This document shows, piece by piece, positions 7,738 to 51,658 of a stretch of 64,000 bases of DNA. How positions within the stretch are numbered: position 1 is the stretch's first letter; each line of letters opens with the position of its first letter. The stretch lies in the NCBI GenBank assembly GCA_004297465.1, contig SCUB01000010.1:124001-188000 (forward strand), written 5' to 3'. The notes beneath the pieces are model-generated. The model searched no databases. It had not been told where the DNA came from and was given only the letters and a program-made list of their open reading frames with translations. Made by a program: the position numbers and the translations under genes. The DNA is from Xanthobacteraceae bacterium. Its GTDB lineage: Bacteria > Pseudomonadota > Alphaproteobacteria > Rhizobiales > Xanthobacteraceae.

Positions 7738-8742
7738 TCAGCCGGCATCCGCCGCCACACCGGCACTGGCGCCTTCCCAGCCGTCAATGCCATAGTCGCT
7801 CATATTGCTCACACCTTGATGGAATCGCAACTTGCGGATGTACTCGTTGGGATCCTTTGGTTTCACCAGCGCGCCGGGCGGCACGTTGAGCCAGTCGACC
7901 AGCCGGGTCAGCAGGAAGCGCATCGCCGCGCCGCGCGCCAGGAGCGGCAGCGCGCGCTGCTCGGCGGCGGCCAGCGGGCGTTCGCGGTGGTAGGCGTTGA
8001 GCAGCGCCCGCGCCTTGGTGACGTTGAAGGAATGATCCGGCTCGAAGCACCAGGCGTTGAGGCAGATCGCAACGTCGTAGGCCAGGAGGTCGTGGCAGGC
8101 GAAATAGAAATCGATCAGGCCCGACAGCTTGTCGCCGATGAAGAACACGTTGTCGGGGAACAGGTCGGCGTGGATGATCCCGGTGGCCAGATCGCCCGGC
8201 CAGTGGCTTTCGAGATGGTCGAGTTCGGCGGCGAGGAACGCGGCAAGCTGCGGCTGCAGTTCGCCGGCGCGCGGACGGGCCATCTCGAACAGCGGACGCC
8301 AGCCCGTCACCGAGAGCGTGTTGGCGCGGCGCATCGGGAAGTCGCGACCCGCCACATGCATGCGCGCCAGCGCCTGGCCGACGCCGGCGCAATGGGCGAC
8401 GCCGGGGCGGCGCGGCCACATGCCTTCGAGGAAATTGATGACGGCCGCCGGGCGTCCCGCCAGCACGCCGAGCGCGCCGCCGTCGTGGCGCTTGACCGGC
8501 TGCGGACAGGTCACGCCGTGGTCGGCCAGATGCGCCATCAGCGACAGGAAGAACGGCAGGTCGGACACCGCGACGCGCTTCTCATACAGCGTCAGGATGA
8601 AATAGCCGCGGCTGGTGTGGACCAGGAAGTTGGAGTTCTCGACGCCTTCGGCGATACCCTTGTAGGACAGAAGTTCGCCGACATCGTAGGCGGCGAGAAA
8701 TTGCCCAAGCTCCTCGGCCGAGACATCGGTGTAGACAGCCAT
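7738..8742 (-). CDS. thrB: Homoserine kinase, ThrB of the aminoglycoside phosphotransferase fold
   Basis: The 334-residue product phosphorylates homoserine in threonine synthesis. It is the kinase-fold type common in alphaproteobacteria, not the GHMP type. Seen: N-terminal [13 protein letters not shown] with the ATP loop, and the catalytic and metal-binding core [13 protein letters not shown] with [15 protein letters not shown]. The ATG at 8742 has GGAG eight bases upstream. A GTG at 8751 overlapping the ispH stop is an alternative. The gene follows ispH with the two stop/start regions touching, so they form one operon. Confidence 0.94.
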
Positions 8743-8747
8743 CCGGC

Positions 8748-9731
8748 TCACTCCGCCGCGTTGTCGGAAGGAGCGTCCGGCTCGCGCCGCAACTGGCGCG
8801 GCAGCGGGAAGAACACACCCTCGTCCGCCGCCAGCACCGGCTCCACGGTGACGTCGTAGCGCGCGGCAAACGCGGCGATGATCTCATCGACCAGCACCTC
8901 GGGAGCCGAGGCGCCCGCGGTGATGCCGAGCCGGGTGATGTCCGACAGCCGGCTCCAGTCCAGGTCGTCGGCGCGCAACACCAGCATGGCGCGGGCGTTG
9001 CCGGCGCGTTCGGCCACCTCGCGCAGCCGCTGCGAGTTCGACGAATTGGGCGAGCCGACCACGATCAGCGCGTCAACATCGGCGGCGACCTGCTTGACGG
9101 CGTGCTGGCGGTTGGTGGTGGCGTAGCAGATGTCTTCCTTGTGCGGTCCGACGATGGCGGGAAAGCGCTGTTTCAGACAGGCCACGATGTCGGCGGTATC
9201 GTCGACCGAGAGCGTGGTCTGGGTGACGTAGGCAAGCTGGGCCGGATCGCGCGGCTCAAACCGCAAGGCATCCGCCAGCGTCTCGACCAGCGCCACGGCG
9301 CCTTGCGGCAATTGTCCCATGGTGCCGACCACCTCGGGATGTCCGGCATGGCCGATCAGGATGACGTCGCGGCCGCGGCGGTGATGCAGTTCGGCCTCGC
9401 GATGCACCTTGGTCACCAGCGGGCAGGTGGCGTCGAGCGCGAACAGGCGGCGCGCCTCGGCAATGGCCGGCACCAACTTCGGCACGCCATGGGCCGAGAA
9501 CACCACCGGGGCCGTGGTGTCGGGAATCTCATCCAGTTCGTCGACGAACACGGCGCCCATGGCGCGCAGCCGCTCGACCACGTAGCGGTTATGGACGATT
9601 TCGTGGCGCACATAGACCGGCGGCCCGTACTGCGCCAGCGCCTGCTCCACGGTGTCGATGGCGCGCACGACGCCGGCACAGAACCCGCGCGGCGAGCACA
9701 ACAGGATGGTCAGCTTCGGCTTGTCCGCCAT
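8748..9731 (-). CDS. ispH: 4-hydroxy-3-methylbut-2-enyl diphosphate reductase
   Basis: The 327-residue iron-sulfur enzyme performs the last step of the MEP isoprenoid pathway, producing IPP and DMAPP. The three cluster cysteines are present in PRGFCAGV (C18), DATCPLV and VGSPNSSNS-proximal regions, with [15 protein letters not shown] and FSAHGVPK also matching the family. The ATG at 9731 gives the canonical [17 protein letters not shown] start; a long in-frame upstream extension has no family support. It heads the ispH-thrB-DUF4189-rnhA run on the minus strand. Confidence 0.96.
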
Positions 9732-9970
9732 GGAGGTCCGGCCCTGAGGCGCCGAAATCCCCCGCACCGGGGGGCCTTGGCGCCAATTCCTTGCGATTTC
9801 AACGGAACTTGACTGGACTTGCCGCCGCCGCCCCGCCCTGTCAAGGCCATACCGAACCCATTGCGCCGGCAGGCCCCAAGCGACTATATTGGCGGCAGTA
9901 TTTCCCGTCATCACCGATGACCGAGGGCTTCGCCTCCGAGAGGCGGGCGAAGCATTAAAGGAGATTTGCC

Positions 9971-10669
9971 GTGAGCAATGCACCGCTGATGCCGAAGGCG
10001 ACCGCCGTGTGGCTCGTCGATAATACCGCGCTATCGTTCGATCAGGTCGCCGAATTCTGCAAGATGCACCCGCTGGAGATCAAGGCCATCGCCGACGGCG
10101 ACGCCGCCCAGGGCATCAAGGGGCTCGACCCGATCGCCACCGGACAACTCTCCCGCGAGGAGATTCAGAAGGCGGAAGCCGATTCGAGCTACCGCCTCAA
10201 GGTGTCCGACCCCAAGACGCGGCTGCCCGAGACCAAGCGCAAGAAAGGCCCGCGCTATACCCCGGTGTCGCGCCGCCACGACCGTCCCAATGCGATCATG
10301 TGGCTGGTGCGCAACCACCCCGAGCTCAAGGACAGCCAGATCATGCGGCTCGTCGGCACCACCAAGTCGACGATCCAGAGCATCCGCGACCGCACCCACT
10401 GGAACGCCTCGACCCTCAGCCCGCTTGACCCGGTCACGCTGGGGCTGTGCTCGCAGATCGACCTCGATTTCGAGGTGCAGCGCGCGGCCAAGGAAAAGCC
10501 GACCGACCAAGGCGTCTATGGCGGCGCCACCCTGCTGCCCGCCGCCGAGACCACGGCTCGGCGCGAGGCGGCCGAGGCCGAGAACGCAGCCAAGCAGGAC
10601 TCCGGCGACCTCAGCGTCGAGGCGGTGTTCGCCAAGCTGAAGAAAATCGGCGGCAAGTCCGAGGAGTAA
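9971..10669 (+). CDS. DUF1013 family protein (TrcR-type cell cycle regulator)
   Basis: The 232-residue product matches the alphaproteobacterial DUF1013 family, annotated in databases as cell cycle transcriptional regulator TrcR. It contains two helix-turn-helix-like stretches: [20 protein letters not shown] near the N-terminus and [28 protein letters not shown] in the middle, with the basic [15 protein letters not shown] between them. The start is GTG at 9971 with an excellent AAAGGAG site seven bases upstream. It is divergent from ispH. The regulator name rests on family memory, while DNA binding is supported by the visible HTH pattern. Confidence 0.88.
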
Positions 10670-10765
10670 AGGCTGCCGTTGCCTTGCTTGTGTTCGCCGG
10701 ACACAACTTGCCGGCGAACATACCGATCAGGGATTGCAAAGCCTAAATCCAGTCTCCGCCTGCGT

Positions 10766-10860
10766 TTTACCGTGAGCAATATTGCTCTCGGGCACATAAT
10801 TCTTTGAGCAGGTCGATTCAAAATTAACGACATCATTAATTTGTCATCTTTACCGTGAGC
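10766..10860. promoter_or_regulatory. Direct repeat and palindrome upstream of the chemoreceptor
   Basis: TTTACCGTGAGC occurs exactly at 10766-10777 and 10849-10860, 83 bp apart, and a perfect 14-bp palindrome GAGCAATATTGCTC lies at 10774-10787. The arrangement is in the leader of the chemoreceptor gene and may bind a regulator. No known operator is recognised. Confidence 0.45.
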
Positions 10861-10894
10861 CCCGGGGAAAACGCTTACGGGGGGTTACTGCAAT

Positions 10895-12601
10895 ATGACG
10901 TTCATGAGGATGACGATTGGCCGCAAGATCTATGCGCTGGTTACCATCGGCTTTGCTGGCTGCTTTTTTATCTCGGCGCTCGGCGTCTGGCAGTTGCGCA
11001 AGTCGCTCGAACAGCAAAAACAGATCGAACTCAAGCACCTCGTCGAAACCGGCCTCGCGCTGATCCAGCGCGAATACGACGCGGCAAATCGCGGCGAACA
11101 GTCGATGGACCAGGCACGCGCCCGCGCCGTGCAGCACGTCGGCGCCATGCGCTACGACAACAACAACTATTTCGTGATCCAGGGCCTCGACGGCAAGCTC
11201 GTGTTTCATCCGCGTCCCGACATGATCGGCCGCGACATGAACAAGATGAACGATTCCGACGGCCGCAACATGTCCACCATCATGCTGGACGCGGTCAGCA
11301 AGACCGGCGCCGGCACCGTCGAATACAACTTCCCGAAGCCCGGCATGGACACGCCGCAGACGAAAGTGGCCTATATCCACAAGTTCGAGCCATGGGGATG
11401 GATGATCAGCACCGGCGTCTACATGGACGATCTCAAGGCCCAGGTGTACGCCTTCATCCGCGACATGCTGCTGATCGTCGGCGCGCTCACCGTTGTCGGC
11501 GGCGCCGTCTCCATCGCGGTTGCTCGTAACATCAGCCGGCCGATCCGCAGCGTCGCCGACGCGATGCACCGCCTCGCGGGCGGCGACACCACGCCGGAGG
11601 TCGCCTTTACCGATCGCGTCGACGAGGTCGGCGAAGTCGCCCGCGCGGCGCTGTCGTTCAAGCAAAGCCTGCAGCACATCGAAACCATCGAGATGGAAAA
11701 GCAGCAGAGCGAGTCGTACGCCGCCCGCCAGCGGAAGGACGACATGACGAAGATCGCCGACCGCATCCGCTCGTCGGTCGGCGGCGTGGTCGGGGCGATG
11801 CAGAAGCTGTCCCGGTCGGCCAGCGCCGCGACATCCGGGATGTCATCGTCCACATCGCAGACCCGCGAACGCATCGACGCCTCGATGAAGGACCTCAAAG
11901 TCGCCTCGCACGATGTGCAATCGGTCGCCGGCGCCGTGACCGAACTCGCCTCCTCGATCAACGAGATCTCGACGCAGAGCGCGCGCTCCAATCAGGCCGC
12001 GGCGTCGGCGCTGGCCGCCTCGCAAGGCACCTCGGCAACCGTCGAGAAACTGGTCGGCGCCAGCCAGCGCATCGGCGACATTTCCGGCCTGATCAACGAG
12101 ATCGCCTCGCAGACCAACCTCCTGGCGCTCAACGCCACCATCGAGGCGGCGCGCGCCGGCGAGGCGGGGCGCGGCTTTGCCGTGGTCGCCGCCGAGGTCA
12201 AGAATCTCGCCGACCAGACCGCCAAGGCGATCGGCGACATCGACCGCCAGGTCGGTGCGCTGCGCGAGGCTTCGACCAATGTCGCTTCCGCCGTGACGCA
12301 GATCACCACCACGATCGAGGGCATGAGCGAAATCTCTTCCTCGGTCGCCAGCGCCGTCGAGGAGCAGAACGTCACCACCGCCGGCATCAGCGCCAGCGTG
12401 ACGCGCGCCGCGACGGGAACCGAAGGCGCGATCGGAAAGATCTCCGATCTCCCCGGCATGGCGCAGGCCATGGAAGCCTCGTCCGAGTCGCTCGCGGGCC
12501 TGATGCAGGACATCGAGCATCAGGCCTCGCATCTGGAGTCCGAGATCGACCGCCTGCTCGCTGAACTCACCTGTTCGCCGGAACGGACGCGCGCCGCCTG
12601 A
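10895..12601 (+). CDS. Methyl-accepting chemotaxis protein with single Cache sensor
   Basis: The 568-residue receptor begins with one membrane helix (about 10-30). A periplasmic single-Cache domain (about 35-185, with [22 protein letters not shown]) follows, then a second helix (about 187-210), HAMP (about 210-262) and a cytoplasmic signalling domain with the hairpin tip [20 protein letters not shown]. It should sense a small carboxylate-like ligand and drive CheA. C-terminal CheR-docking pentapeptides are absent. The ATG at 10895 lies behind a G-rich run; an ATG at 10907 is possible. No che genes are nearby, so it is an orphan receptor gene. Confidence 0.93.
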
Positions 12602-23559: not shown

Positions 23560-23763
23560 ATGAAAGACCGATCCAAGTCGAAAGCCGAACATCAGGCTCC
23601 GCGTCCCGACAACGCCGACCAGCCCATGCTCGACGCGAAAATCCAGGACGTGCTCGGGCGCGCCTTCAGAGCCTATTCCGCCGACATCATCCACGAACCG
23701 ATCCCGGAAAAATTTCTCCAGCTGCTTGCTCAGCTGGATGCCAAGGAGCGGCGGGATGGCTGA
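23560..23763 (+). CDS. nepR: Anti-sigma factor NepR
   Basis: The 67-residue product sequesters EcfG and is itself captured by phosphorylated PhyR. The hallmark core IQDVLGRAFRAYSADIIHEP followed by IPEKFLQLLAQLD is present. Flanking tails are charged and probably disordered, as known for NepR. The ATG at 23560 is preferred by family length; an in-frame ATG at 23530 is possible and neither has a strong ribosome site. It overlaps the ecfG start by 8 bases. Confidence 0.93.
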   Translation: MKDRSKSKAEHQAPRPDNADQPMLDAKIQDVLGRAFRAYSADIIHEPIPEKFLQLLAQLDAKERRDG

Positions 23764-24316
23764 AAAGACCCCGTCCGAGCAGCTCGTGGCGGAAATTCCC
23801 CATTTGCGGGCTTTCGCGCGGGCCCTGGCTGGGTCAACGGCAACCGCCGACGACCTTGTCCAGGAGACCCTTGTGAAGGCCTGGACCAATTTTACCAGCT
23901 TCCAGCAGGGCACCAATTTGCGCGCCTGGCTCATCACCATCATGCGCAACAGTTTTTATGACATGCACCGCAAATACGGCCGCGAGTTGCAGGACAGCGA
24001 GGGCCAGTACGCGGCCCAGGTTGCCACGCGCGGCAATCAGGAAGGCAATCTGGCGTTGGTGGAATTCCGCGCCGTGCTCGATCAGCTCGCGCCCGATCAT
24101 CGCGAGGTGCTCATCATGATCGGCATCAACGAACTGTCCTACGAGCAGGCCGCCGATATTTGCGGCGTCGCCGTGGGGACGATCAAGAGCCGCGTCAATC
24201 GCGCCCGGGCAAAGCTGGCGGAGATCCTCCACCTCACGGAAGTCAACGACATCGGCCCCGATCCGCTGAGTTCGAGCGTGCTTGCGGCGCCGCCGACCAA
24301 AACCGCCTCGCGCTGA
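23756..24316 (+). CDS. ecfG: General stress ECF sigma factor EcfG
   Basis: This 186-residue ECF sigma factor has region 2 (FARALAGSTATADDLVQETLVKAW; NLRAWLITIMRNSFYD) and region 4 (LAPDHREVLIMIGINELSYEQAADICGVAVGTIKSRVNRARAKL). It directs RNA polymerase to GGAAC-N16/17-CGTT promoters, six of which are visible in this window. AAGGAG lies eight bases before the ATG at 23756. Co-transcribed with nepR. Confidence 0.95.
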   Translation: MAEKTPSEQLVAEIPHLRAFARALAGSTATADDLVQETLVKAWTNFTSFQQGTNLRAWLITIMRNSFYDMHRKYGRELQDSEGQYAAQVATRGNQEGNLALVEFRAVLDQLAPDHREVLIMIGINELSYEQAADICGVAVGTIKSRVNRARAKLAEILHLTEVNDIGPDPLSSSVLAAPPTKTASR

Positions 24317-40164: not shown

Positions 40165-41514
40165 CTAAAGCATGTACCCTATATCGGAGCACGCGGAAGG
40201 ATAACCGGAGATCATGCCCTTGACGGTCTCGGCCGTGAGACCTGAGCGGATCGCCAGGCCAAAGAGAGTGATGACCTCCTCAGCATGCGGGCCGAGCAGA
40301 TGGGCGCCGAGAATGCGGTCGGTATCTTCTTCAACCAACACCTTGAACCCCGAGGCCTCTTCTCCCACCCGCCTGGCGGTATTCCAGCTGGACGTCTTCT
40401 GGTGCTGCATGCGGAAGCGCAGGCCTTGCCGGCGCGCCTCCGCCTCCAGCATGCCGACCCGGGCGAGCGGTGGGATCGTGAAGACGACGCTCGGAACGCC
40501 CAGATAGTTCGGCTTCTGATGATTGCCGTGCAGCATGTTGGCCGCGACGATCTTCGCGTCGTGACTTGCCACCGGCGTCAGGGGAGGACCGCTTGCCGCT
40601 GCGTCACCTGCGGCGTACACGGCCGGATTTGATATGCTCTGCAGGAATTCGTTGAGTTGCAACCGGCCGCCGCTCACCTCGACACTCGCCGCAGGGAGAT
40701 CGAGCGGTTCGAGATCGGGCACGCGGCCGGCGGCATGGACCACGAGATCCGCCTCGACAGTCCGCGATGTCCCACCCGAGCGGGCATGAACCTTGAAGGC
40801 CGCGCCGGTCTTCTCGATTGCCTCGACGCGCACGCCGAGCTGGATGTCGATGCCGAGTTGGCGTGTCTTCTCCATGAGCCAGCCGACAAGGTCGGGATCG
40901 AATTGCGTCAGCATGCGATCCACTTGCTCCAGGACCGTGACTTGCGCGCCGGCGCGCGAAGCAAGATGCGCGAACTCGGCCGAGATAAAGCCGCCGCCGA
41001 GAAGCGCGATCCGTTTCGGCAGTTCGTCGAGTTCCAGGAAGTCGGTGCTCGTCGCGAGATGCTCCTCGCCGGCGATGCCGAGGCGCATCGGCACCGCGCC
41101 AGTCGCGATCAGGACGAACCGGCCATCGAGCTCGGCGCCTTCAACCGCGACCGTACGCGGACCGGTGAATCGGGCACGGCCATGGAAGGCATCGATGCCG
41201 CTTTTGGCGAAGCTCTCTTCCTTCGTGGACGGGACGGGTTCGGTAAAGCTGCGCTTGAAGTGGATCAGCGCGCGCCAGTCGATGGCCGGTTCACCGCCCG
41301 CGACACCCTTACCGCGCATTCGATGGACGTGGTCGATCGCCTCCGCCGCGCCCACCAGCACCTTCTTCGGATCACATCCGCGCAAGGCGCAAGTGCCGCC
41401 GAACGGCAGATGATCGATGACCGCAACTCGCCAGCCGGCCGCGCGGCAGCGGGAAGCGGCGACCGAGGCCGCCGTTCCGGTGCCGATGACCACGAGATCA
41501 TAGGTCTTTGCCAT
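40165..41514 (-). CDS. FAD-dependent disulfide oxidoreductase, glutathione-reductase-like
   Basis: The 449-residue flavoprotein has FAD site VVIGTGTAASVAASRC, redox-active cysteines C42 and C47 in GGTCALRGC, NAD(P) site IALLGGGFISAEFAHLASRAG, and VYAAGDAAASGPPLTP. The C-terminal interface motif that is HPT.SE in classical members reads GYPSACSDIGYML, so the usual catalytic His is Tyr. The substrate is unknown; related proteins are annotated dihydrolipoyl dehydrogenase or mercuric reductase-like. It is on the same strand as the patatin gene, 70 bases downstream of it, and at the end of the SigF-region gene run. Confidence 0.86.
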   Translation of the reverse strand: MAKTYDLVVIGTGTAASVAASRCRAAGWRVAVIDHLPFGGTCALRGCDPKKVLVGAAEAIDHVHRMRGKGVAGGEPAIDWRALIHFKRSFTEPVPSTKEESFAKSGIDAFHGRARFTGPRTVAVEGAELDGRFVLIATGAVPMRLGIAGEEHLATSTDFLELDELPKRIALLGGGFISAEFAHLASRAGAQVTVLEQVDRMLTQFDPDLVGWLMEKTRQLGIDIQLGVRVEAIEKTGAAFKVHARSGGTSRTVEADLVVHAAGRVPDLEPLDLPAASVEVSGGRLQLNEFLQSISNPAVYAAGDAAASGPPLTPVASHDAKIVAANMLHGNHQKPNYLGVPSVVFTIPPLARVGMLEAEARRQGLRFRMQHQKTSSWNTARRVGEEASGFKVLVEEDTDRILGAHLLGPHAEEVITLFGLAIRSGLTAETVKGMISGYPSACSDIGYML

Positions 41515-41584
41515 ATCCCGCTCCGTCGCTCGAAGACGAACAAATCCAGGGACACGAGCGTTCCTTTATCGGACGCGTGTCCGT

Positions 41585-42763
41585 TCATTCGCAATCCATA
41601 GGTTTTGCCGTGGTCGTCGCCTGCGCCCTTCCGACGAGAATGTCGTGGATCACATCGAACACGCGCACGCCAACCTCTCTCGGCTTCGGCGCGAGCCATG
41701 GCGCGGCACTCAGAGTGGAGAAGGCATCGGACATGCCCTGTTCCCATCGCGCGTTCATTGCGCGCCGGCTGAACTCAAAGTCCTTTGACGCGCCTTGGGG
41801 TTCGAGCGGACGGTAGATGAGCTGGACGATGTCCATCTCGGTGACGCAGCCGAACGCATAGAGCCGCTTGGCCTGTTCGGTCCTCTTGATTTCATCCGGC
41901 AGCAATTCGTGCAGCTCGTTGATCGCATGGCGCACCTCATGCTTTTGCTGGAAGACATCGGTGTTGACCCGTGTCCGGCTCGAGTAGCGGATGTCCTTTT
42001 CCCGCTCGCAAGCTTCCTCGAGATTTGTCGGGAGTTGACCGTAGCCCTCGAACACGTCGACCTGAAAGGTCAGCCGGCTACGGCGCGGATAGTAGTCCAG
42101 CACGTATTGCAGCGGCGTATTTGAGACCAGCCCGCCATCCCAATAATGCTCGTCATCGATCTCAATCGGAGGAAAGCCCGGCGGCAGCGCGCCACTCGCC
42201 ATCACATGCTCGGGACGGATGGCGATCTCCTCGCTGTCGAAATAGGCAAAGCGGCCGGTGCGTACATTCACCGCCCCGACGCTGAAGCGCATTTCCTTGG
42301 CGTGGTTGATGCGGTCGAAATCGACCAGCCGTTCCAGCGTGCATTTGAGTGCATTGGTGTCGAAATAGCTGATCGGCTTTTGCGCCAGAAGCCAGTCTTG
42401 TGGAGCGTGCGGAGCGAAAAAGCCGGGTTGACCGAATGTCAGGCTCGAAAGCGCGCTCGCTTTTTGTTGCCACATCGCCAACCATCCGGTCAGACCGGCG
42501 TACCACCACGCCGTGGGTGCGGTGATCCCCTCCCAAAAGCTGCGCAGGCGCGCGACGCGATTCTCCGGTGCGTTGCCGGCGATGATCGCGGCGTTGATGG
42601 CGCCAATCGAGATGCCTGCTACCCAATCGGGGAGATACTCGGAGGAGGCCAGCGCCTCGTAGACACCGGCCTGGTAGCTGCCAAGCGCGCCACCTCCTTG
42701 CAGAACGAGGGCAACCTTCTTGTCATACGATGCTGGTCGAGCCGGCGGCTTACGATCGCTCAT
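41585..42763 (-). CDS. Patatin-like phospholipase with DUF3734 domain
   Basis: The 392-residue product has the patatin oxyanion hole VLQGGGALGSYQAG, the nucleophile serine in VAGISIGAINAAIIAG, and the catalytic Asp in YWDGGLVSNTP. The C-terminal third matches DUF3734-type extensions. It should hydrolyse acyl esters of lipids. No signal peptide is seen. The ATG at 42763 gives MSDRKPP; another ATG at 42769 is two codons upstream, with GGAAC adjacent. It is 101 bases from the peroxiredoxin-like gene and might be the tail of the SigF operon or separate. Confidence 0.9.
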   Translation of the reverse strand: MSDRKPPARPASYDKKVALVLQGGGALGSYQAGVYEALASSEYLPDWVAGISIGAINAAIIAGNAPENRVARLRSFWEGITAPTAWWYAGLTGWLAMWQQKASALSSLTFGQPGFFAPHAPQDWLLAQKPISYFDTNALKCTLERLVDFDRINHAKEMRFSVGAVNVRTGRFAYFDSEEIAIRPEHVMASGALPPGFPPIEIDDEHYWDGGLVSNTPLQYVLDYYPRRSRLTFQVDVFEGYGQLPTNLEEACEREKDIRYSSRTRVNTDVFQQKHEVRHAINELHELLPDEIKRTEQAKRLYAFGCVTEMDIVQLIYRPLEPQGASKDFEFSRRAMNARWEQGMSDAFSTLSAAPWLAPKPREVGVRVFDVIHDILVGRAQATTTAKPMDCE

Positions 42764-42864: not shown

Positions 42865-43413
42865 TCACACCTCTCGCACCTCGCCGCGCGCAGGATAGTT
42901 GTTCTTCAGGACATAGTCGATGGCCAGGAGAATTTCGGAGAAGTGCGGGCGCGCAAATGGCATGGTCTGGACGCTACCAAAATACAGCGTTCCATCCGGC
43001 TTGATCAGGTAAAGCGCGGGCTCCGAGAACCGCGCGGGCTCTTCAACGCCTGTCGACGTCATGCCACGGCCCGTCGAGACGAACAGACCCCAACGGCGCG
43101 CGGCGGCGAGGTCGAGACCATAGCCGAGGCGCAGTTTCGTCAATCCCCAAGCTCGTTTGGTCTCCTCGGCGCGCTCGCGCGTATCGCTGGATACGGCCGC
43201 CACGGCGACGCCGCGCTTGTCAAATTCCCCGAGCTTGGGCTCGAGATCCCTCAGCTGGGTCTTGCAGATCGGACAGTGAAGGCCGCGATAAAACACGAGA
43301 AGCGTGAAGTTCGCGGGCCTTTCCTGGTCGAGTTGAAACTTATCGCCACCGACGAGATCAAGCCTGAGCGGCGGTACGGGCTGCCGGGGGATCAATGGAA
43401 CGATATCTGTCAT
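42865..43413 (-). CDS. AhpC/TSA-like peroxiredoxin family protein
   Basis: The 182-residue thioredoxin-fold protein has LLVFYRGLHCPICKTQLRDLEP with a C47-P-I-C50 pair at the peroxidatic position, SSDTRERAEETKRAWGL, and EPALYLIKPDGTLYFGSVQ. It is likely to reduce peroxides or disulfides in the cytoplasm. The ATG at 43413 has GAGG eight bases upstream. It lies 29 bases after ccdA, completing a Trx-CcdA-Prx set. Confidence 0.87.
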   Translation of the reverse strand: MTDIVPLIPRQPVPPLRLDLVGGDKFQLDQERPANFTLLVFYRGLHCPICKTQLRDLEPKLGEFDKRGVAVAAVSSDTRERAEETKRAWGLTKLRLGYGLDLAAARRWGLFVSTGRGMTSTGVEEPARFSEPALYLIKPDGTLYFGSVQTMPFARPHFSEILLAIDYVLKNNYPARGEVREV

Positions 43414-43442
43414 GATCTTCGCCTCGCAAGTGGCGCCATCGA

Positions 43443-44165
43443 TCAGAAGCGCGTTGTGAGCTGAGTAAGCCATGTCGGTGAGAGGTCCACCAGAAGTGCC
43501 TCGAGCTTTCTGTCGAGCCCGGTCAGGCTCAGCAACGCGATGGCGACGAGCAGCGCGCCAAGGATCGCCTTCCCGCCCTGCCCTGCTCGCGCGAGCTTGT
43601 CTCTCCATCGCAACATCACGTCGCTGGAGACGAGCCCGAGCAGAAGCAGCGGCAGCGCGGCGCCCACGCCGAACGCGGCCATGACGGTCGCCACTTGTCC
43701 GAGGTCCTTGCCTTGCGCGGCAAGAACCGAGGCGGCCCCAAGGGTCGGACCGACGCAGGGGCTCCACACGGCACCGAGCAGCAGACCAACCGCAAATTGT
43801 CCTTTCAATCCGCTTCTGGCAAAGCCGCCAAAGCGATCGTCGGTCCAATTGCTGACAAAACCTCCCGCGACGGCCACTCGGGTCTGCAACTGCGGGACCA
43901 TGAGAACCAGCCCGATAACAAGCAACAACAAGGCGGCGGCGGCGCGGAGGACGTCGGCATCCAGTCCGATCGAAAACCCGACCGTGGCCACAAACAATCC
44001 GATCGCCACGAACGAAACCGCAAGGCCTGCAGCCAGCACCACCGGCCCGAACCGATGCTCGGACACGGCAGCGCCAAGGACCAGCGGCAACAGAGGCAAA
44101 ACGCAAGGTGACAGCGTCGAGAGAATGCCGGCCAGAAGCGCGAACAGGCTGGCGCCGATTGCCAT
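43443..44165 (-). CDS. ccdA: CcdA/DsbD-like membrane thiol electron transporter
   Basis: The 240-residue protein has six membrane helices and the two redox cysteines in STLSPCVLPLLP and VWSPCVGPTLG, diagnostic for the CcdA family. It moves electrons from cytoplasmic thioredoxin across the inner membrane to periplasmic thiol proteins. It is nine bases downstream of the thioredoxin-like gene and upstream of a peroxiredoxin-like gene. Confidence 0.93.
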   Translation of the reverse strand: MAIGASLFALLAGILSTLSPCVLPLLPLVLGAAVSEHRFGPVVLAAGLAVSFVAIGLFVATVGFSIGLDADVLRAAAALLLLVIGLVLMVPQLQTRVAVAGGFVSNWTDDRFGGFARSGLKGQFAVGLLLGAVWSPCVGPTLGAASVLAAQGKDLGQVATVMAAFGVGAALPLLLLGLVSSDVMLRWRDKLARAGQGGKAILGALLVAIALLSLTGLDRKLEALLVDLSPTWLTQLTTRF

Positions 44166-44174
44166 GATGCACCC

Positions 44175-44576
44175 TCACTTGGTCAAGGTTGATCGGACCA
44201 GGGCTGCGATCGAAGCTGGGTCGGTATCGCCAACCGAACGTGCCGTCTCGGTCTTGCCCCGGAATGCAATCAGGGTGCTTTGACTTCGCGCGCCGAATTC
44301 GCGAACGGTTGGTTTCTGGCTGTCGAAATCGACCGAGAGGATAACAAGGTCGCTGTTGCTTGGCTGCTCTGCTAGCGAGTCGATGATCGGCTCTTGCGCC
44401 TTGCAGGTCGGACACCACGTCGCCGAGATGTCGACAAGGATGCGCGCGCCACGTTGCTGCGCCGCCTGAAAACTCGCTTGGTCGAAAGCCTTGCGCTCCA
44501 CGGCCCCAGCGCCCGTCGCCATCCCCGGAGCCAGCGAAAGGGCGAGTGCGAACATGAGGAACCGACGTCTTTGCAT
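44175..44576 (-). CDS. Periplasmic thioredoxin-like protein
   Basis: The 133-residue product has a twin-Arg-containing signal segment (MQRRRFLMFALALSLAPG), then a thioredoxin fold with active site DISATWCPTCKAQEP, and LSVDFDSQKPTVREFGARSQSTLIAF including the cis-Pro region in modified form. It is exported, so it is the likely periplasmic partner of CcdA. GGGAG precedes tandem ATGs; the second (44576) gives a spacing of 6. It follows nrsF by 87 bases on the same strand. Confidence 0.88.
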   Translation of the reverse strand: MQRRRFLMFALALSLAPGMATGAGAVERKAFDQASFQAAQQRGARILVDISATWCPTCKAQEPIIDSLAEQPSNSDLVILSVDFDSQKPTVREFGARSQSTLIAFRGKTETARSVGDTDPASIAALVRSTLTK

Positions 44577-44663
44577 CATGATCTCCCGAGTTAGAGCGAG
44601 TGATGGATTTGGCGCAGGCGGGGCCCTTGTGGGATTTGCGCCCCGCATTTTCGTGGGCCTCAT

Positions 44664-45335
44664 CTAATCCTGGGCGCAGAACTCCCGCGGCGCGACCCAA
44701 CGGAACATGCCTCGGCCGAAGATGGCCGCCAGGCCGACGAACAGCACGGTCGTTCCAACATTCCACATCAGGATCATCACCGTGGCGTCGGTGGCGTGAA
44801 ACAGCGAGAGTGCCGTCGCCGTGACCGCGGCAATGGAAAGGCTGCCCGTCAAGGCTACCGCGGTTGGGCGGAGCGGAGCCGCATAGCGAAGCATCACCAG
44901 CATGGCGAGCGACAATGGCAGGCTCGTGAGCACCAGCGTCGCGAAGCAACGCGCCGTTTCTCCAGGGCTTACCCCGCTGGGACCGATGGCGATCCAATCG
45001 ACCAGACACTGGTAGCCGACGTTGGACAGCCATACGATCAGCGCCGGCACAGGCAGAAGCAGCCACAGCCGCGAGCGGTCCGGCAGACTGAGGAGAAAGG
45101 CCGCGATGGCCGCCAGCACGCCGGTCAGCAGCGCCCCGGCCAGGCTGACGTCGAATCCGGGATCCCGCAAGCGCTGAACGAGATCTGGACGAATACCCTG
45201 GTTGACGGCCTGCAGCGTCAGGATGACCGCCGCCAGCAGCAGCCAGCAAGCTGCCCGAATAACCGGGGGGCGCAGCCGCCGAACCGGGGTCGCGTTCGCG
45301 GCAAGTGAAGCAATGAGATCTGGTGTCTTGATCAC
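44664..45335 (-). CDS. nrsF: NrsF (DUF1109) membrane anti-sigma factor
   Basis: The 223-residue protein has about six membrane helices and matches DUF1109/NrsF: MIKTPDLIASLAANATPVRRLRPP, then helices including YQCLVDWIAIGPSGVSPGETARCF with two cysteines (in YQC and ARC) that could sense metal or redox stress. In Caulobacter NrsF holds SigF inactive at the membrane until stress. Its start overlaps the sigma-factor stop by four bases (ATGA). Confidence 0.9.
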   Translation of the reverse strand: MIKTPDLIASLAANATPVRRLRPPVIRAACWLLLAAVILTLQAVNQGIRPDLVQRLRDPGFDVSLAGALLTGVLAAIAAFLLSLPDRSRLWLLLPVPALIVWLSNVGYQCLVDWIAIGPSGVSPGETARCFATLVLTSLPLSLAMLVMLRYAAPLRPTAVALTGSLSIAAVTATALSLFHATDATVMILMWNVGTTVLFVGLAAIFGRGMFRWVAPREFCAQD

Positions 45336-45961
45336 GGCTCGCTCCGATCGAGCAATATCTTCCGAAGCCTCTTCACGGCCCGGTGGGTGTTGACCTTGAG
45401 GGACGTGATCGACATTCCGCTTGCTATCGCGGCCTGCTTCAACGACATCCCCTCGAGCTTGAGCAGCCGGATGGCCTGTCGCTGCCTTGGAGGAAGATCG
45501 TTGATCGCTCCCTCCAGTTCACGATGTTCAGGACTCTCTTGTTGGTTCGTTTCAGGCTCCGAAAAGGTTTCATGGTCGGCGGTCAGAGGTGTCTCCCGGT
45601 CCCTGGCGCGCCCTTGACGGCGCAGCCGATCGATGAAGCGCCGGCTGGCGATCGCGACCAGCCAGGGCGCGAACGGCCGCGCCGGATCGTAAGTCCTGCG
45701 GATGGAATGGATGGTCAGAAGAACATCCTGGACGGCGTCCTCGACATCGCTTGGATCGCGATGCCGCCGCGCCGCCAGGGAGCGCAGATAGGGCGTGATC
45801 TCCTCCAGGAGTCGACGATAGGCCAGCCCGTCACCGTCCTGGGCGCGCGCCATGAGGATCGACCAGTCCACATCGCGAACCACCGGCTTCCCATGGTCGG
45901 CGGATGCGTCCTTTCCGACAAGCTTCAGCGTCGGGATACGGCCGCGCGGCTCCTCAGCCAT
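45332..45961 (-). CDS. sigF: ECF sigma factor, SigF type
   Basis: The 209-residue ECF sigma has region 2 (LEEITPYLRSLAARRHRDPSDVEDAVQDVLLTIHSIRRTY) and region 4 (LPPRQRQAIRLLKLEGMSLKQAAIASGMSITSLKVNTHRAVKRL). Its coupling to a DUF1109 anti-sigma marks it as the SigF/NrsF type known in Caulobacter to respond to oxidative and metal stress. It lies 26 bases after bufD, so the buf genes and sigF probably share one transcript and sigF amplifies itself. Confidence 0.92.
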   Translation of the reverse strand: MAEEPRGRIPTLKLVGKDASADHGKPVVRDVDWSILMARAQDGDGLAYRRLLEEITPYLRSLAARRHRDPSDVEDAVQDVLLTIHSIRRTYDPARPFAPWLVAIASRRFIDRLRRQGRARDRETPLTADHETFSEPETNQQESPEHRELEGAINDLPPRQRQAIRLLKLEGMSLKQAAIASGMSITSLKVNTHRAVKRLRKILLDRSEP

Positions 45962-45987
45962 TTAACGACACCCTCCAAAGCCAGGCA

Positions 45988-46497
45988 TCATGCTTCTCGT
46001 ATACGAGATTGACGGAATCGATAGATCAAATGATCGAGCGACAGCGCGCCGGGTCCGAGTGCGATGATGGCGATCGCCAAGGCCGCCCACGGCAGGTGAA
46101 AGTTGGCCCAGCCTTCCGGCACCACGAGTTGAATGACCCCGGTCATGACCAGGAGCCCGAGTGCGCTGAAGCGGGTTGCCAGCCCGACGATGAGCAGGAT
46201 GGGGAGCACGATCTCGGCGACGCCATCAAGGAAGGCTAACGCGGTCGGCATCGGGAAATCGAAGGCCCGGCCGAAAATGTGCAACTTGAATTCGTCCTCG
46301 AAAAGGAACTCGGCGGCCGGCGACAGCGACAGGAAACCATCCCACTTGGTCAGCCCGGACTTGAAGAAGGGCACGGCCAGCGCAACGCGGAGAACCGGCG
46401 GCGCCACGACAGAGGCGATCCGGCCAAGCCACGCGACAATATCTTCCACGGCGTGTTCGATGCCGGTGGCGTTCATCTGCATTTTCATCGCGGTCAT
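45988..46497 (-). CDS. bufD: DoxX family membrane protein of the bufferin operon
   Basis: The 169-residue protein has about four membrane helices and the DoxX pattern: LRVALAVPFFKSGLTKWDGF, LFEDEFKLHIFG, and FLDGVAEIVLPILLIVGLATR. DoxX proteins accompany bufferin operons, possibly as quinone- or thiol-linked membrane partners; the role is not settled. Its ATG overlaps the bufC stop (ATGA), with GAGG five bases upstream. Confidence 0.9.
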   Translation of the reverse strand: MTAMKMQMNATGIEHAVEDIVAWLGRIASVVAPPVLRVALAVPFFKSGLTKWDGFLSLSPAAEFLFEDEFKLHIFGRAFDFPMPTALAFLDGVAEIVLPILLIVGLATRFSALGLLVMTGVIQLVVPEGWANFHLPWAALAIAIIALGPGALSLDHLIYRFRQSRIREA

Positions 46498-47300
46498 GCT
46501 TGCCTCGCCGAGTTCTTGGGTTTCCTGCCATCAGTGAAGCTGTATCCGATCACAGCCCCGCTTTGCATGAGGTCGGAGAGATTGGCAGCGAGATCGAACC
46601 GGGGATTGGCCGTCAGGGCTGCTTGCAACGCGGCGAGGATCGAGCCTTCGTTGGCCAACTCCTGCACGAATTCGAGGCTGCCCGCGGGCAGCGAACGAAC
46701 TTCAACATCCGCCATCGGCCGGACGATGAGCACGTCCTCGCCGCCGGCGGCGAGGTCCACCGGCGCGGGGGCTCCATCGCCGACATTCATCTGCCAGATC
46801 GTGAGCGCGGGAAACCGCGACCGGACGAAACGCACCGAAGGGTGAAACTTGAGCCGGATCACGGGAAGCTGCTCGGGGTCGATCGCCGCGAAGGCGCCGA
46901 GTTCGAGTGGCGCGGCCTCGGGCGCGTGGTAGGCCTCGGTCCAGGCGCGCTCGATCCGCGCAACATCGGCCAGATAAGGCAGGGTCGCGGCGGGCTCGAA
47001 GTTCTCGATGAAATCGGGGAATCCGGTTCCATAGTCGAGCATGATCGGCGAGTGCGGCGGGTCGGTCGCGACGTACACGCGTGCCATGGCGCGGAAGAAA
47101 TCCGTTCCCACCAGGCGCTGCACCGCCGGAAAGGCGTCCTTCAGAGTTTCCGTGAGACCGGCCACGACATTGTTCCTGTACACGGAGAAGCGTTTCAGGC
47201 TCAGCTCGCCGTCGGGGCCGACAAGGCCAGGCGGCATCGGCAACTCGGGATCGAGCAGCGCAGCGGCAAAATCGCGCTGCCGTTCAGCCAGCCGTGGCAT
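46494..47300 (-). CDS. bufC: BufC-like DUF2063 RiPP-modification partner
   Basis: The 268-residue protein has the DUF2063 N-terminus (LAERQRDFAAALLDPELPMP; FSVYRNNVVAGLTETLKDAFPAVQRLVG; ARVYVATDPPHSPIMLDYG) and a C-terminal domain. DUF2063 proteins are obligate partners of DUF692 oxidases and help present the precursor peptide. The start at 47300 (MPRLAERQ) overlaps the bufB end by 17 bases. Confidence 0.93.
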   Translation of the reverse strand: MPRLAERQRDFAAALLDPELPMPPGLVGPDGELSLKRFSVYRNNVVAGLTETLKDAFPAVQRLVGTDFFRAMARVYVATDPPHSPIMLDYGTGFPDFIENFEPAATLPYLADVARIERAWTEAYHAPEAAPLELGAFAAIDPEQLPVIRLKFHPSVRFVRSRFPALTIWQMNVGDGAPAPVDLAAGGEDVLIVRPMADVEVRSLPAGSLEFVQELANEGSILAALQAALTANPRFDLAANLSDLMQSGAVIGYSFTDGRKPKNSARQA

Positions 47301-48165
47301 GACGCATGGTCTCCGATTGCGTGGCGAGCATGATGGCCTCGGCGCGCTCCGCTTCCGCTTTGAGCGTTGGCCAAGCGGGGACATCGGCGTCCCATTCGAT
47401 CAATGTGGGGACCGGACCGATCAGTTTCACGGTATGCGCGAACAGATCCCAGACGATCTCATCGACCGGGCGATTGTGCGTATCGATCAGAAGCGGCCGC
47501 TCCTTGTCGTCGGCCTCCCTGGTATGGCCCGCCAGGTGGATCTCCTGGACGTGGGAGAGCGGATAGGCCTCGACATAGGCGACGGGATCCCATTGCTGAT
47601 TGGTCGATGCGACATAGACATTGTTGACGTCGAGCAGCAGGCCGCAACCCGTGCGCCGCACCACCTCGGCGATGAAGTCGGTTTCCGAAAAGGTGCTTTC
47701 GGCGAACGCGATATAGGTCGATGGATTTTCCAGCAGCATTTGCCGGCGGAGGGATTCCTGGATCTGGTCGATATGGCTGGAGACACGCCCGAGCGTCTCG
47801 GCCGTATACGGCACCGGCAGCAGATCGTTGAAAAAGCCGGCATCATGCGATGACCAGGCGAGATGTTCTGAGAACAGGCCGGGCGCGTAACGAGCGATCA
47901 GGTCCTTGAGGCGCTCAAGATGCTCCCTGTCGAGCGGCCGGTCGGCGCCGATCGACAAACCGACGCCATGGAGCGACAGCGGATAATGCTCGCGAATGGC
48001 TGCGAGATAACGGTGCGGCGGGCCGCCCGCGCCCATGTAGTTTTCCGCATGGACCTCGAAGAAGCCGATGTCGGGCCGCGTCTGGATGACCGTGTGGTAA
48101 TGCATCGCCTTCAGGCCGACGCCACCGCGCGGCGGAACGGAACTCGCGGCTGAAGAAAACGGCAT
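47284..48165 (-). CDS. bufB: BufB-like DUF692 multinuclear non-haem iron oxidase (MNIO)
   Basis: The 293-residue TIM-barrel enzyme belongs to DUF692, now known as MNIOs, which oxidise cysteines of precursor peptides to oxazolone/thioamide or thiooxazole-type groups using two or three irons. Candidate ligands are visible: H39 and E41-N42 (FFEVHAEN), H66 (LHGVGLS), E100-H101 (SEHLAW), E146-N147, D179-N181 (LLLDVNN), H210/H214 (IHLAGH), D228/H230 (IDTHNRP) and E257 (LIEWD). GGAGG precedes the ATG. It is second in the bufA-bufB-bufC-bufD run. Confidence 0.95.
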   Translation of the reverse strand: MPFSSAASSVPPRGGVGLKAMHYHTVIQTRPDIGFFEVHAENYMGAGGPPHRYLAAIREHYPLSLHGVGLSIGADRPLDREHLERLKDLIARYAPGLFSEHLAWSSHDAGFFNDLLPVPYTAETLGRVSSHIDQIQESLRRQMLLENPSTYIAFAESTFSETDFIAEVVRRTGCGLLLDVNNVYVASTNQQWDPVAYVEAYPLSHVQEIHLAGHTREADDKERPLLIDTHNRPVDEIVWDLFAHTVKLIGPVPTLIEWDADVPAWPTLKAEAERAEAIMLATQSETMRHATAG

Positions 48166-48194
48166 AATAACCTCCGGCGGATGCGGGCGAAGCC

Positions 48195-48217
48195 GGCGGG
48201 CGGCACAGCCGCCCGCC
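48195..48217 (-). terminator. Attenuator-like hairpin between bufA and bufB
   Basis: A perfect 10-bp GC stem (GGCGGGCGGC/GCCGCCCGCC) with an ACA loop lies in the 66-base gap between bufA and bufB and lacks a T-run. It probably attenuates transcription or protects the 3' end of bufA mRNA, giving more precursor than enzyme. Directionality is inferred from the genes. Confidence 0.65.
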
Positions 48218-48231
48218 CGAACAAACCGCGA

Positions 48232-48579
48232 TCAAGCCTTCTTGGCGGTCAAGCTTCCGGGCCCCTTCGGCGTCTGCATCGTCGTGCAGGTTCCTTTGGG
48301 TTCAAGCTTGAACGCATTGCCCTGGTAGTCGATCGTGCTGGTGCCGGCGCAGGTCGTGCCCGCTCCAGCGTAGCAGTCGTTCTGGCCTTTGAGCGCCACG
48401 CCGAAGCACTTCTCCATCTTGCCCTCGCTCAGCACCTTCATCGTCTTGGCCTGATTTTCCTTCATCATCTTTTCCATGTCGCCCTTGTTCATCTGGGCGC
48501 CGGCCGAGGTGGCAGCGAACGACCCAACGGCTGCGGTGAAGGCGCCGACGATCAGTGCGGATAGTATGCGATTGGACAT
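48232..48579 (-). CDS. bufA: Bufferin-type RiPP precursor (DUF2282)
   Basis: The 115-residue precursor has an N-terminal Sec signal ([24 protein letters not shown]), a Met/Lys/Glu-rich leader portion, and a core with four cysteines at 58, 69, 77 and 98 ([36 protein letters not shown]). This is the DUF2282/bufferin pattern: MNIO-modified cysteines yield a secreted copper-binding peptide that protects against copper. CGGAGGAACGGAA precedes the ATG. A SigF-type promoter is about 88 bases upstream. Confidence 0.94.
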
Positions 48580-48666
48580 TTCCGTTCCTCCGATTGCGGG
48601 TTGGCTGTGCGACCGTACGCGCGTACGCATTCGTCCGTGCGGGCCGAGAGGCTCGCTGACTGACAG

Positions 48667-48691
48667 TTCGCCTGGCAAACCGAAAGGTTAC
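48667..48691 (-). promoter_or_regulatory. SigF-type promoter of the buf operon
   Basis: On the minus strand GTAACC (48691-48686) is followed after 15 bases by CGAA (48670-48667). The Caulobacter SigF motif recalled from the literature is GTAACC-N16-CGAA, so this matches both hexamer and tetramer with a spacer one base shorter. Confidence 0.7.
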
Positions 48692-48748: not shown

Positions 48749-49087
48749 ATGACCGAGAAATTCCGTGCTGCTGGCGTGACGCTGACCGAGCTGCGCCTGC
48801 TGGCGACCATCGGCAAGCACCAGCCCCTGGCCGTCAACGAAGCGAGCAGCCTGACCGGCATCGACAAGGCCTGGGTCAGCCGCTCGCTGACCACGCTGGC
48901 CGCATCCCTCCGACAGCCGGGTCGTCCGCTGGCGCTGACCCCTCAGGGCAAGACCAAGGTGCAGCGCATCATTCCGCTGGCGGTGGAGCGGAACGAGCGT
49001 CTTCTCGCCGGCAAGAGGAACCGAGCAATCTTCGACAAGACCCTCGACGAACCGCAGGGCCAGATCGGCAAACTCAACGAACCCTGA
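48749..49087 (+). pseudogene. Decayed partial copy of the MarR gene
   Basis: From about 48773 the DNA is nearly identical to the 39.66-40.13 kb marR gene (GVTLTELRLLATIGKHQP through GKLNEP and beyond the stop, TGACAGGCGGAG). It lacks the first ~40 codons and a 26-base stretch encoding the wing (TLVKRKLVV...). A further single-base deletion about 25 bases later restores the frame, and six more bases are gone near AGERN. The out-of-frame part reads AASLRQPGRP. The open frame persists but the wing is destroyed, so DNA binding is unlikely. Confidence 0.85.
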
Positions 49088-50880: not shown

Positions 50881-51525
50881 TCATGCCGACGGATTGGCCC
50901 GCGGCGAAGATGCGATCCAGTTGGCCAGCGGGCCCTCCAGCCTCTCGATCGGCTGATAGCCATTGGTGAGCAGGGCAAAGCCGCGATCGTCGCGAACCAG
51001 AACCGTGGGAAATCCATTCACGCCCATCGAGCGCGACCAGTGAAAATCCGCGGCGGTTTCTGCGCGGGTTTCGGGGTCTTCATAGGCGGCGAGAAACGCA
51101 TCGTGGTCGATGCCGATCTCCGCCGCCGGAATGGCGAACGAATTGGGATCGTGCGGATCACGATTGTGCGTATAAAATCCGGCCTGAATGAGTGGCATGT
51201 AGACCCATTCGGCGCCGGGCTTCAGCCGCCGCACGGTGACCAGTGCGCGGCAGGCCTTTTCCGTGTCGTAAATCCAGGGGCCGCGATCGAGAATATCGAG
51301 AGAGAATTCTTGCCCCGTGCGCTGGCCAATCTCCATCCAGTGAGCGCGCAGAAAGCGGCGGTATTCGCCTTCGACGACATAATCGTTGCCCGGATGCAGA
51401 CCGCCCATTTTCAGGGTCATGGTCATTTCATGCTTGTGCCGTGCATAGAGCCCCTGAACGACCGGCGCGAAGCCGAAGCACCAGGAACACATGGGATCGC
51501 CGATATAAATCAATTCCGGTTTCAT
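50881..51525 (-). CDS. DsbA family protein, FrnE-like
   Basis: The 214-residue thioredoxin-fold protein has the redox pair C13-S-W-C16 in YIGDPMCSWCFGFAP and the DsbA helical insert, ending with FHWSRSMGVNGFPTVLV (cis-Pro). No signal peptide is seen, so it is cytoplasmic, as for FrnE-type oxidoreductases. GAGGAG lies six bases before the ATG at 51525. It is the last gene before tRNA-Phe on the minus strand. Confidence 0.9.
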   Translation of the reverse strand: MKPELIYIGDPMCSWCFGFAPVVQGLYARHKHEMTMTLKMGGLHPGNDYVVEGEYRRFLRAHWMEIGQRTGQEFSLDILDRGPWIYDTEKACRALVTVRRLKPGAEWVYMPLIQAGFYTHNRDPHDPNSFAIPAAEIGIDHDAFLAAYEDPETRAETAADFHWSRSMGVNGFPTVLVRDDRGFALLTNGYQPIERLEGPLANWIASSPRANPSA

Positions 51526-51658
51526 GCGGCGCTCCTCTCGCAACTCTGCTGAACGGACAAGCCCATACCCGACACCCCGGCGATACCCAAGCCGAAAAGT
51601 TGTTGTGGCTCGCGCAGGTGCGACGAGTGATAGCTATCTGATTTTTCTATTAAAAAAA

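Follow-up and report, generated by a model that had tools for sequence, protein, structure and literature searches.

Bufferins, which bind copper, form a very large peptide family, and a run of genes in a Xanthobacteraceae bacterium raises the question of how their reactive thiols are kept intact in the periplasm. The run lies in a stretch of 64,000 nucleotides (the window), positions 124,001 to 188,000 of contig SCUB01000010.1 in GenBank assembly GCA_004297465.1. Nine genes follow one another there on the minus strand, from 48579 down to 42865, in the order bufA, bufB, bufC, doxX, sigF, nrsF, trx, ccdA and an AhpC/TSA-like gene, with one SigF-type promoter ahead of them. On the evidence of their sequences, they appear to form a single stress-switched unit in which a copper-trapping peptide is combined with a reducing relay into the same compartment. 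The SigF-bufferin part of such a unit is already known; the thiol part and the kind of NrsF anti-sigma factor seem to be new as far as the literature searched shows. A thiol-reducing pair linked both with the SigF regulon and with two families of bufferin would be a concrete and testable answer to the question.

A bufferin operon with an attached thiol pair

All nine products pass the curated Pfam cut-offs (Table 1), and their order, single strand and close packing are as described in an earlier note on this DNA. Neighbouring genes overlap or are separated by at most 30 bases, save for bufA-bufB (66 bases) and nrsF-trx (87 bases). The start of bufC was corrected to 47300, giving a 17-base overlap with bufB, and that of the last gene to 43413 (MTDIVPL...), which aligns with the start of its counterpart at locus L094. 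A chance run of genes is ruled out by the curated domain matches and by recurrence in other genera.

By its sequence this is a Buf1 bufferin operon, as the same note had proposed, with every part present: a DUF2282 precursor with four cysteines, a multinuclear non-haem iron-dependent oxidase (MNIO) of the maturase kind that exceeds the NF050167 cut-off, a DUF2063 partner and DoxX. The four BufA cysteines align in 9 of 9 sequences, the BufA N-terminus has a signal-like stretch (judged by eye), and GGAGGAA precedes the bufA ATG. The closest solved structures by sequence are 3bww (DUF692) for BufB and CcdA 5vkv for CcdA, which at 240 residues consists of the membrane core alone. Cut-offs of the NCBIfam HvfC and HvfX models are not reached by the operon's proteins. 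The genome has one MNIO gene, one above-cut-off NrsF gene and one CcdA of this kind, all within the operon; a second, distant CcdA-like gene (51.8 bits) is also present.

The last gene had been taken for a peroxiredoxin. Peroxiredoxins carry the active-site motif P-x-x-x-T/S-x-x-C, and the corresponding VFYRGLHCPIC has Gly at the T/S position, so that a true peroxiredoxin is rejected. The protein scores 40.5 with the SelL-related model NF040769, under its cut-off of 120, and no signal peptide was seen by eye. Among six other full runs of these genes (see below), it adjoins ccdA, in the same place as here, only at L094, and lies about 3 kb further on at L070 and L075. It is not a proven peroxiredoxin, and we assign it no role past cytoplasmic thiol chemistry.

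Table 1. Operon features in window coordinates, with profile scores and cut-offs in bits.
Feature	Position	Strand	Evidence
SigF/ECF16-type promoter GTAACC-N15-CGAA	48667..48691	-	pattern search
bufA, Buf1 (DUF2282) bufferin precursor, 115 aa, four Cys	48232..48579	-	PF10048 83.3 (cut-off 22.4)
bufB, MNIO bufferin maturase	47284..48165	-	PF05114 356.5 (cut-off 25); NF050167 388.8 (cut-off 310)
bufC, DUF2063 partner of BufB	46494..47300	-	PF09836 94.4 (cut-off 27.2; scored on longer open reading frame 46494-47384)
bufD, DoxX membrane protein	45988..46497	-	PF07681 61.9 (cut-off 23.6)
sigF, ECF sigma factor of ECF16/SigF kind	45332..45961	-	PF04542 Sigma70_r2 52.4 (cut-off 24); PF08281 r4_2 45.6 (cut-off 25.7); adjoins nrsF
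nrsF, six-helix anti-sigma factor, Cys110-Cys130-His180 kind	44664..45335	-	PF06532 106.7 (cut-off 26.8)
trx, thioredoxin, active site WCPTC, N-terminus signal-like by eye	44175..44576	-	PF00085 50.2 (cut-off 23.5)
ccdA, DsbD-core/CcdA electron transporter, SPC motifs at Cys21 and Cys137	43443..44165	-	PF02683 DsbD_TM 49.5 (cut-off 27.1)
AhpC/TSA-like thiol protein with YRGLHCPIC	42865..43413	-	PF00578 55.6 (cut-off 26)

A SigF-type promoter ahead of bufA

The SigF-type control suggested earlier is borne out at the level of sequence. The promoter lies 88 bases ahead of the bufA ATG, and a motif of this kind stands ahead of bufA in 20 of the 21 bufA genes (the window's included) at loci with an NrsF of the Cys-Cys-His kind described below. 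It is this site and this recurrence in other genomes that give the promoter call its weight, not rarity: a looser motif has one match within the window against 0.42 expected, and at least one appears in 35 of 100 shuffles. The strict pattern GTAACC-N14-16-CGAA has four matches in the 3.12 Mb genome, compared with 12 for the reversed pattern. The other three strict matches precede two histidine-kinase-like genes and one EF-G-like gene (annotated by eye) and look like chance. A larger SigF regulon in this genome was accordingly rejected, in a genome-wide search limited to the strict pattern.

No SigF motif is present within the 300 bases ahead of the thioredoxin domain here, and the trx-ccdA pair lies inside the bufferin operon instead. 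The other full runs are alike in having the motif at bufA and none of its own at trx, which points to a shared promoter. Ahead of sigma-like genes at these loci, the motif is found in only 6 of 47 cases (a set that counts one genome, L032 and L118, two times and includes an unrelated sigma gene of the window), a sparseness that fits the weak autoregulation reported for Caulobacter SigF. Where the run is complete, transcription continuing through from bufA would raise sigF in a positive loop. A second ECF sigma-like open reading frame lies at window positions 23726-24316 on the plus strand and scores 180 bits with a SigF profile.

Recurrence and spread of the operon

A survey of gene neighbourhoods, which the earlier note had recommended, was made with a CcdA alignment and yielded 80 named loci, the top-scoring among the matches listed. 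The order bufABC-doxX-sig-nrsF-trx-ccdA occurs in six of these (L070, L071, L072, L075, L094 and L111), in six further genomes: a Hyphomicrobiales metagenome-assembled genome (MAG), Phyllobacterium calauticae (L071), Mesorhizobium soli, Aminobacter ciceronei DSM 15910 (L075), Bradyrhizobium sp. CSA207 (L094) and a Bradyrhizobium MAG. All nine genes are found in Bradyrhizobium sp. CSA207, with the ninth directly following. Two more loci (L107 and L034) have bufABC-doxX-trx-ccdA with sig-nrsF apart or divergent. Overall, bufB is present in 14 of the 80 loci and NrsF in 14.

DNA similarity is confined to the operon. When window positions 34000-58000 were compared with eight loci by blastn (E up to 1e-10), matches fell only within 42868-48613, and identity to Bradyrhizobium sp. 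CSA207 was 76-79% within the operon alone. A tree of six joined proteins with nine tips places the window with CSA207 (support 0.999) and the Bradyrhizobium MAG with Mesorhizobium (1.000). These groupings are at odds with genus names, and together with the confined similarity they suggest that the operon spread horizontally as a block, a modest claim given the MAG labels and the nine tips.

The trx-ccdA pair as a unit of the SigF regulon

The earlier note regarded the thiol-redox genes as an addition to the known set. They are indeed attached and recur so in other genomes, but the regulon already holds a precedent for thioredoxin with CcdA: Bradyrhizobium EcfF controls a membrane-anchored thioredoxin and a DsbD-core protein, bll1026-27 (PMC3420878), which rules out a module without precedent. 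We asked how general this case is. At the thresholds used, the pair is present in 73 of the 80 CcdA loci, and 66 stand-alone pairs are left when the six full runs and L107 are set aside. The motif GTAAC-N15-17-CG[AT], sought from 300 bases before to 30 bases into the thioredoxin domain, occurs in 30 of these 66, compared with 2 for the reversed pattern, 2 for the antisense strand, and a mean of 1.7 (largest 13) for 300 permuted patterns. All 30 genomes with the motif encode NrsF, compared with 21 of the 36 without it (Fisher p = 4e-5). The trx-ccdA pair is therefore a probable widespread unit of the SigF regulon, which would extend the one Bradyrhizobium case to many genera.

The pair has also entered bufferin operons of another family. 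A Proteobacteria MAG (L087) and two Hyphomicrobium MAGs (L103 and L104) carry a Cys-rich precursor gene followed by trx, ccdA, bufB and bufC at about 8220-11450, with a weak DoxX-like open reading frame divergent from them. By model NF050166 (cut-off 60) the L103 precursor, scoring 83.5, is a BufA2 (Buf2), and NF050167 recognises the MNIOs of L103 and L104 as bufferin maturases. No SigF motif was found on the gene strand at positions 7901-8620 of the three loci. The pair does not seem to be specific to bufferins, but by this count bufferin operons have acquired it on at least two occasions.

A class-wide search matched NrsF in 55 of 385 genomes, and the 33 best matches outside the genome studied here (E up to 3e-27) were taken. 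Of bufA, bufB and bufC, at least one is near in 13 of the 33 regions; trx-ccdA is near in 6, and both occur in one (L218). The regions compared in this work span 3.7 to 18.7 kb, so missing neighbours may reflect short stretches. One of them, L035, with a thioredoxin match at a looser threshold and no CcdA, was counted as being without the pair.

One Hyphomicrobium locus stands apart. At L032 (8393-9445 and 10388-12116, genome G037; also L118), a Cys-Cys-His sig-nrsF is followed by a methyltransferase (by Pfam; ArsM-like by eye), a divergent ArsR-like open reading frame (by eye), two thioredoxins and CcdA. No bufferin gene is present in the 16 kb region, and about 12 kb separate sig-nrsF from the MNIO gene of this genome. 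This is possibly an arsenic branch of the SigF regulon.

A second kind of NrsF

The ECF sigma gene adjoins a gene for a six-helix DUF1109/NrsF anti-sigma factor, the arrangement that marks the ECF16 group. This NrsF scores 31.8 with the NCBIfam equivalog AntiSigF_NrsF, whose cut-off is 300. The first conserved cysteine of characterised members (C131 in Caulobacter, C129 in OsrA) is kept as Cys130, the second (C181 and C179, respectively) is replaced by His180, and Cys110 is new. We typed 82 NrsF sequences, a set enriched for the Cys-Cys-His kind by searches for its relatives and containing one genome twice (L032 and L118). Forty-seven, including the window's, are Cys-Cys-His and 31 are x-Cys-Cys, with two x-Cys-His, one x-Cys-Asp and one gapped; Cys110 and Cys180 occur together in none of the 82. 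Comparing the kinds column by column is circular at 110 and 180, where the types are defined, whereas the joint residue counts are not. A smaller sample, of 35 NrsF sequences from relatives, holds eight of the Cys-Cys-His kind and 27 of the other.

Cys110 and Cys130 are invariant in an 8-row alignment of the Cys-Cys-His kind. A structure model of NrsF (15 rows) has six long helices with a mean predicted local distance difference test score (pLDDT) of 76.4, and a search of PDB structures with it found nothing at E 0.001 or below. Cys110 lies near the end of helix 3 of the model, Cys130 near the start of helix 4, and His180 in the last loop. Positive charges average about 1.9 per sequence in loops 83-95 and 150-156, compared with 0.36 in 116-123 and 0 in 180-184, and the latter two loops are therefore placed outside; loop 47-58, also outside in the same topology, has 1.7 positive charges offset by 2.0 acidic ones. 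Cys110, Cys130 and His180 would thus share one membrane face, the periplasmic one, and the change from Cys to His would keep the conserved residues there.

The residue pattern marks a second kind of NrsF, distinct from the Caulobacter type, and no description of it was found in the literature searched. The second cysteine of OsrA (C179) is reported to be needed for the H2O2 response. The Cys-to-His replacement splits the sensor model in two, since a mechanism based on that cysteine cannot apply as such to the Cys-Cys-His kind. Many target promoters at Cys-Cys-His loci read GTAACCTTT, and those of stand-alone trx genes are often GTAACG or GTAACA, which is an uncounted impression; the two kinds of NrsF may pair with two promoter flavours.

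Proposed mechanism and alternatives

The proposed account runs as follows. NrsF, a six-helix membrane protein, would hold SigF until excess copper or an oxidant acts on its periplasm-facing Cys110/Cys130/His180 site, a role suggested by conservation and topology, and SigF would then be released. SigF would transcribe the operon from the single promoter ahead of bufA, raising sigF and nrsF as well. BufB and BufC are expected, as established for other bufferins, to turn the two central cysteines of BufA into thiooxazoles before export, and the periplasmic bufferin to bind copper. CcdA, judging from its family, would move electrons from cytoplasmic thioredoxin across the membrane to the exported Trx, which would reduce periplasmic disulfides. 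We consider these five steps likely to be right. The weak link is the target of the relay. The likeliest candidates would be the bufferin's own thiols, which an oxidising compartment would turn into disulfides if nothing countered it, and envelope proteins that copper has wrongly oxidised.

The reading we favour, at a probability of about 0.5, is that of a self-contained, sporadically spread SigF operon that protects the cell envelope from copper and thiol stress, with a relay that keeps bufferin and envelope thiols reduced. Besides the operon with its promoter, its recurrence, the SigF motifs at stand-alone pairs and the Buf2 loci, this reading draws on the thiol and disulfide chemistry of thiooxazole peptides and on precedent. 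One such peptide had free thiols and aggregated, which its authors ascribed to possible disulfides (PMC12668002), and another thiooxazole product carried a disulfide reducible by tris(2-carboxyethyl)phosphine (PMC12538549). The Scs proteins ScsB-ScsC provide a precedent for a thiol relay in copper defence (PMC8900818). A bolder version, which we advance only tentatively and which as a whole is less likely than not, makes CcdA-Trx a dedicated bufferin reductase that keeps or restores the thiol form in the oxidising periplasm, allowing bufferin to bind, release and rebind copper rather than be consumed. MNIO-made peptides would then have their first redox partner, which Buf1 and Buf2 operons would have acquired independently of each other, and the Cys-Cys-His NrsF would be a copper-tuned sensor distinct from the Cys-Cys oxidant sensor. 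In the literature searched (titles and term counts), no work was found that joins MNIO or bufferin with CcdA, DsbD or thioredoxin.

Several observations weigh against the favoured reading. Most bufferin operons are without the pair: among 61 related genomes, 36 MNIO matches occur in 26, and this kind of CcdA lies within 5 kb in at least two (G000 and G021; a lower bound from comparing positions, as contigs are split). The bufferin landscape paper, in its excerpted text, reports further conserved genes in bufferin clusters at extremely low proportions. The three Buf2 loci resemble one another closely and were counted as a single event. Caulobacter makes bufferins, yet its SigF regulon as reported in the excerpted text lists no trx-ccdA (PMC3511200). 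Replacing either cysteine of Caulobacter NrsF is reported to raise basal expression, and the single mutants still respond to dichromate, so that cysteine chemistry alone may not explain sensing. Finally, an MNIO gene is absent from 15 of the 30 genomes with a SigF-promoted stand-alone pair, so the relay is useful without a bufferin.

Those 15 genomes also speak for a different account, in which the relay, as part of the SigF regulon, repairs the envelope in general (by feeding periplasmic methionine sulfoxide reductases, Msr, for example, or by reducing damaged thiols) without any particular tie to bufferin, and the operon merely brings together two arms of that regulon. Bradyrhizobium EcfF controls trx-ccdA along with Msr genes, and its authors propose that electrons pass to periplasmic Blr7043 (PMC3420878). 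The genome studied here carries two MsrA genes and one Oxidored_molyb gene, but the MsrA genes are on other contigs, C7 and C21, the Oxidored_molyb gene is on C7, and the genome's three remaining strict SigF motifs all stand ahead of different genes. In Hyphomicrobium, moreover, the pair belongs to a Buf2 operon, and the stretch searched there contains no SigF motif. General repair is possible, and nearly as likely as the reading we favour. We think it doubtful, and less likely, that the thioredoxin serves instead to reset the sensor, reducing a Cys110-Cys130 disulfide in NrsF and so shutting SigF off, a negative feedback comparable to that of SigR/RsrA and thioredoxin. Both cysteines lie at the periplasmic face by topology and do not vary in the alignment, and in the search for relatives trx-ccdA is near the Cys-Cys-His NrsF at 3 of 8 loci (2 of 7 without the window) compared with 0 of 27 for the other kind (p = 0.009). 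The 6 of 33 class-wide loci with the pair can be added, but the remaining 27 have none in the region covered and two of the six (L235 and L241) lack Cys110; regulons with the other kind of NrsF, as in Bradyrhizobium, carry trx-ccdA too, and the Hyphomicrobium Buf2 case has no nearby NrsF. It is very improbable that trx, ccdA and the AhpC/TSA-like gene came to lie here by chance as a module for cytochrome c maturation or another CcdA function: family names do link CcdA and thioredoxin-like proteins to cytochrome c assembly as well, but several genera share the gene order, SigF motifs at stand-alone pairs far exceed chance expectation, and the genome has the other, distant CcdA-like gene.

Neighbouring genes

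Downstream of the operon, at window positions 40165-42763 on the minus strand, are genes for a patatin-like phospholipase with DUF3734 and a pyridine nucleotide-disulphide oxidoreductase that is MerA-like by eye; this segment has no DNA match in the eight loci compared. On the other side, a MarR-like open reading frame (48749-49087, plus strand) is divergent from bufA and apparently truncated, scoring 26.2 bits, just under the Pfam cut-off of 27. A DsbA-like thioredoxin-fold protein is encoded beside a MarR gene, 2.3 kb upstream of bufA (50881-51543, minus strand; PF01323, 36.3 bits).

Comparison with known systems

The earlier note equated the first six genes with the Caulobacter arrangement, and this does not hold. 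Caulobacter sigF-nrsF and its bufferin operons CC3254-57 and CC2907-05 share bufferin, sigma and anti-sigma families and the promoter motif with the operon described here, but both bufferin operons and sigF are reported under separate promoters, unlike the single-strand fusion here, and NrsF has Cys131/Cys181 in place of Cys110-Cys130-His180 (PMC3511200). The spacer of the motif is N15 here, N16 in Caulobacter (GTAACC-N16-CGAA) and N14-15 in Bradyrhizobium. In S. meliloti, the ECF16 sigma of RpoE7-EcfR7 likewise controls a DUF692/DUF2063 operon, SMb20527-30, whose bufferin genes are divergent from rpoE7-ecfR7 (PMC6180224). The excerpted text of that paper calls the two Caulobacter cysteines conserved there and mentions no thioredoxin or cytochrome c biogenesis gene.

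Bufferins and captophorins, as described in excerpted text, share precursor, MNIO, DUF2063 and (bufferins) DoxX with this operon, and the words thioredoxin, CcdA and DsbD do not occur in the main texts (PMC12452194, PMC12668002). The Scs system likewise uses a membrane electron transporter and a thioredoxin-fold protein in copper defence (PMC8900818). Periplasmic domains flank both sides of the ScsB core, compared with a bare membrane core here, and ScsC is a DsbA/DsbC-like thioredoxin-fold protein; no bufferin is mentioned in the excerpted text. Bradyrhizobium EcfF-OsrA differs in that bll1026-27 is its own transcription unit apart from ecfF, that OsrA has Cys129/Cys179, and that no bufferin gene is named in the regulon table as excerpted (PMC3420878). 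What it has in common with the operon is the thiol pair itself: an exported thioredoxin (export judged by eye here) beside a DsbD-core/CcdA protein, under an ECF16 sigma factor.

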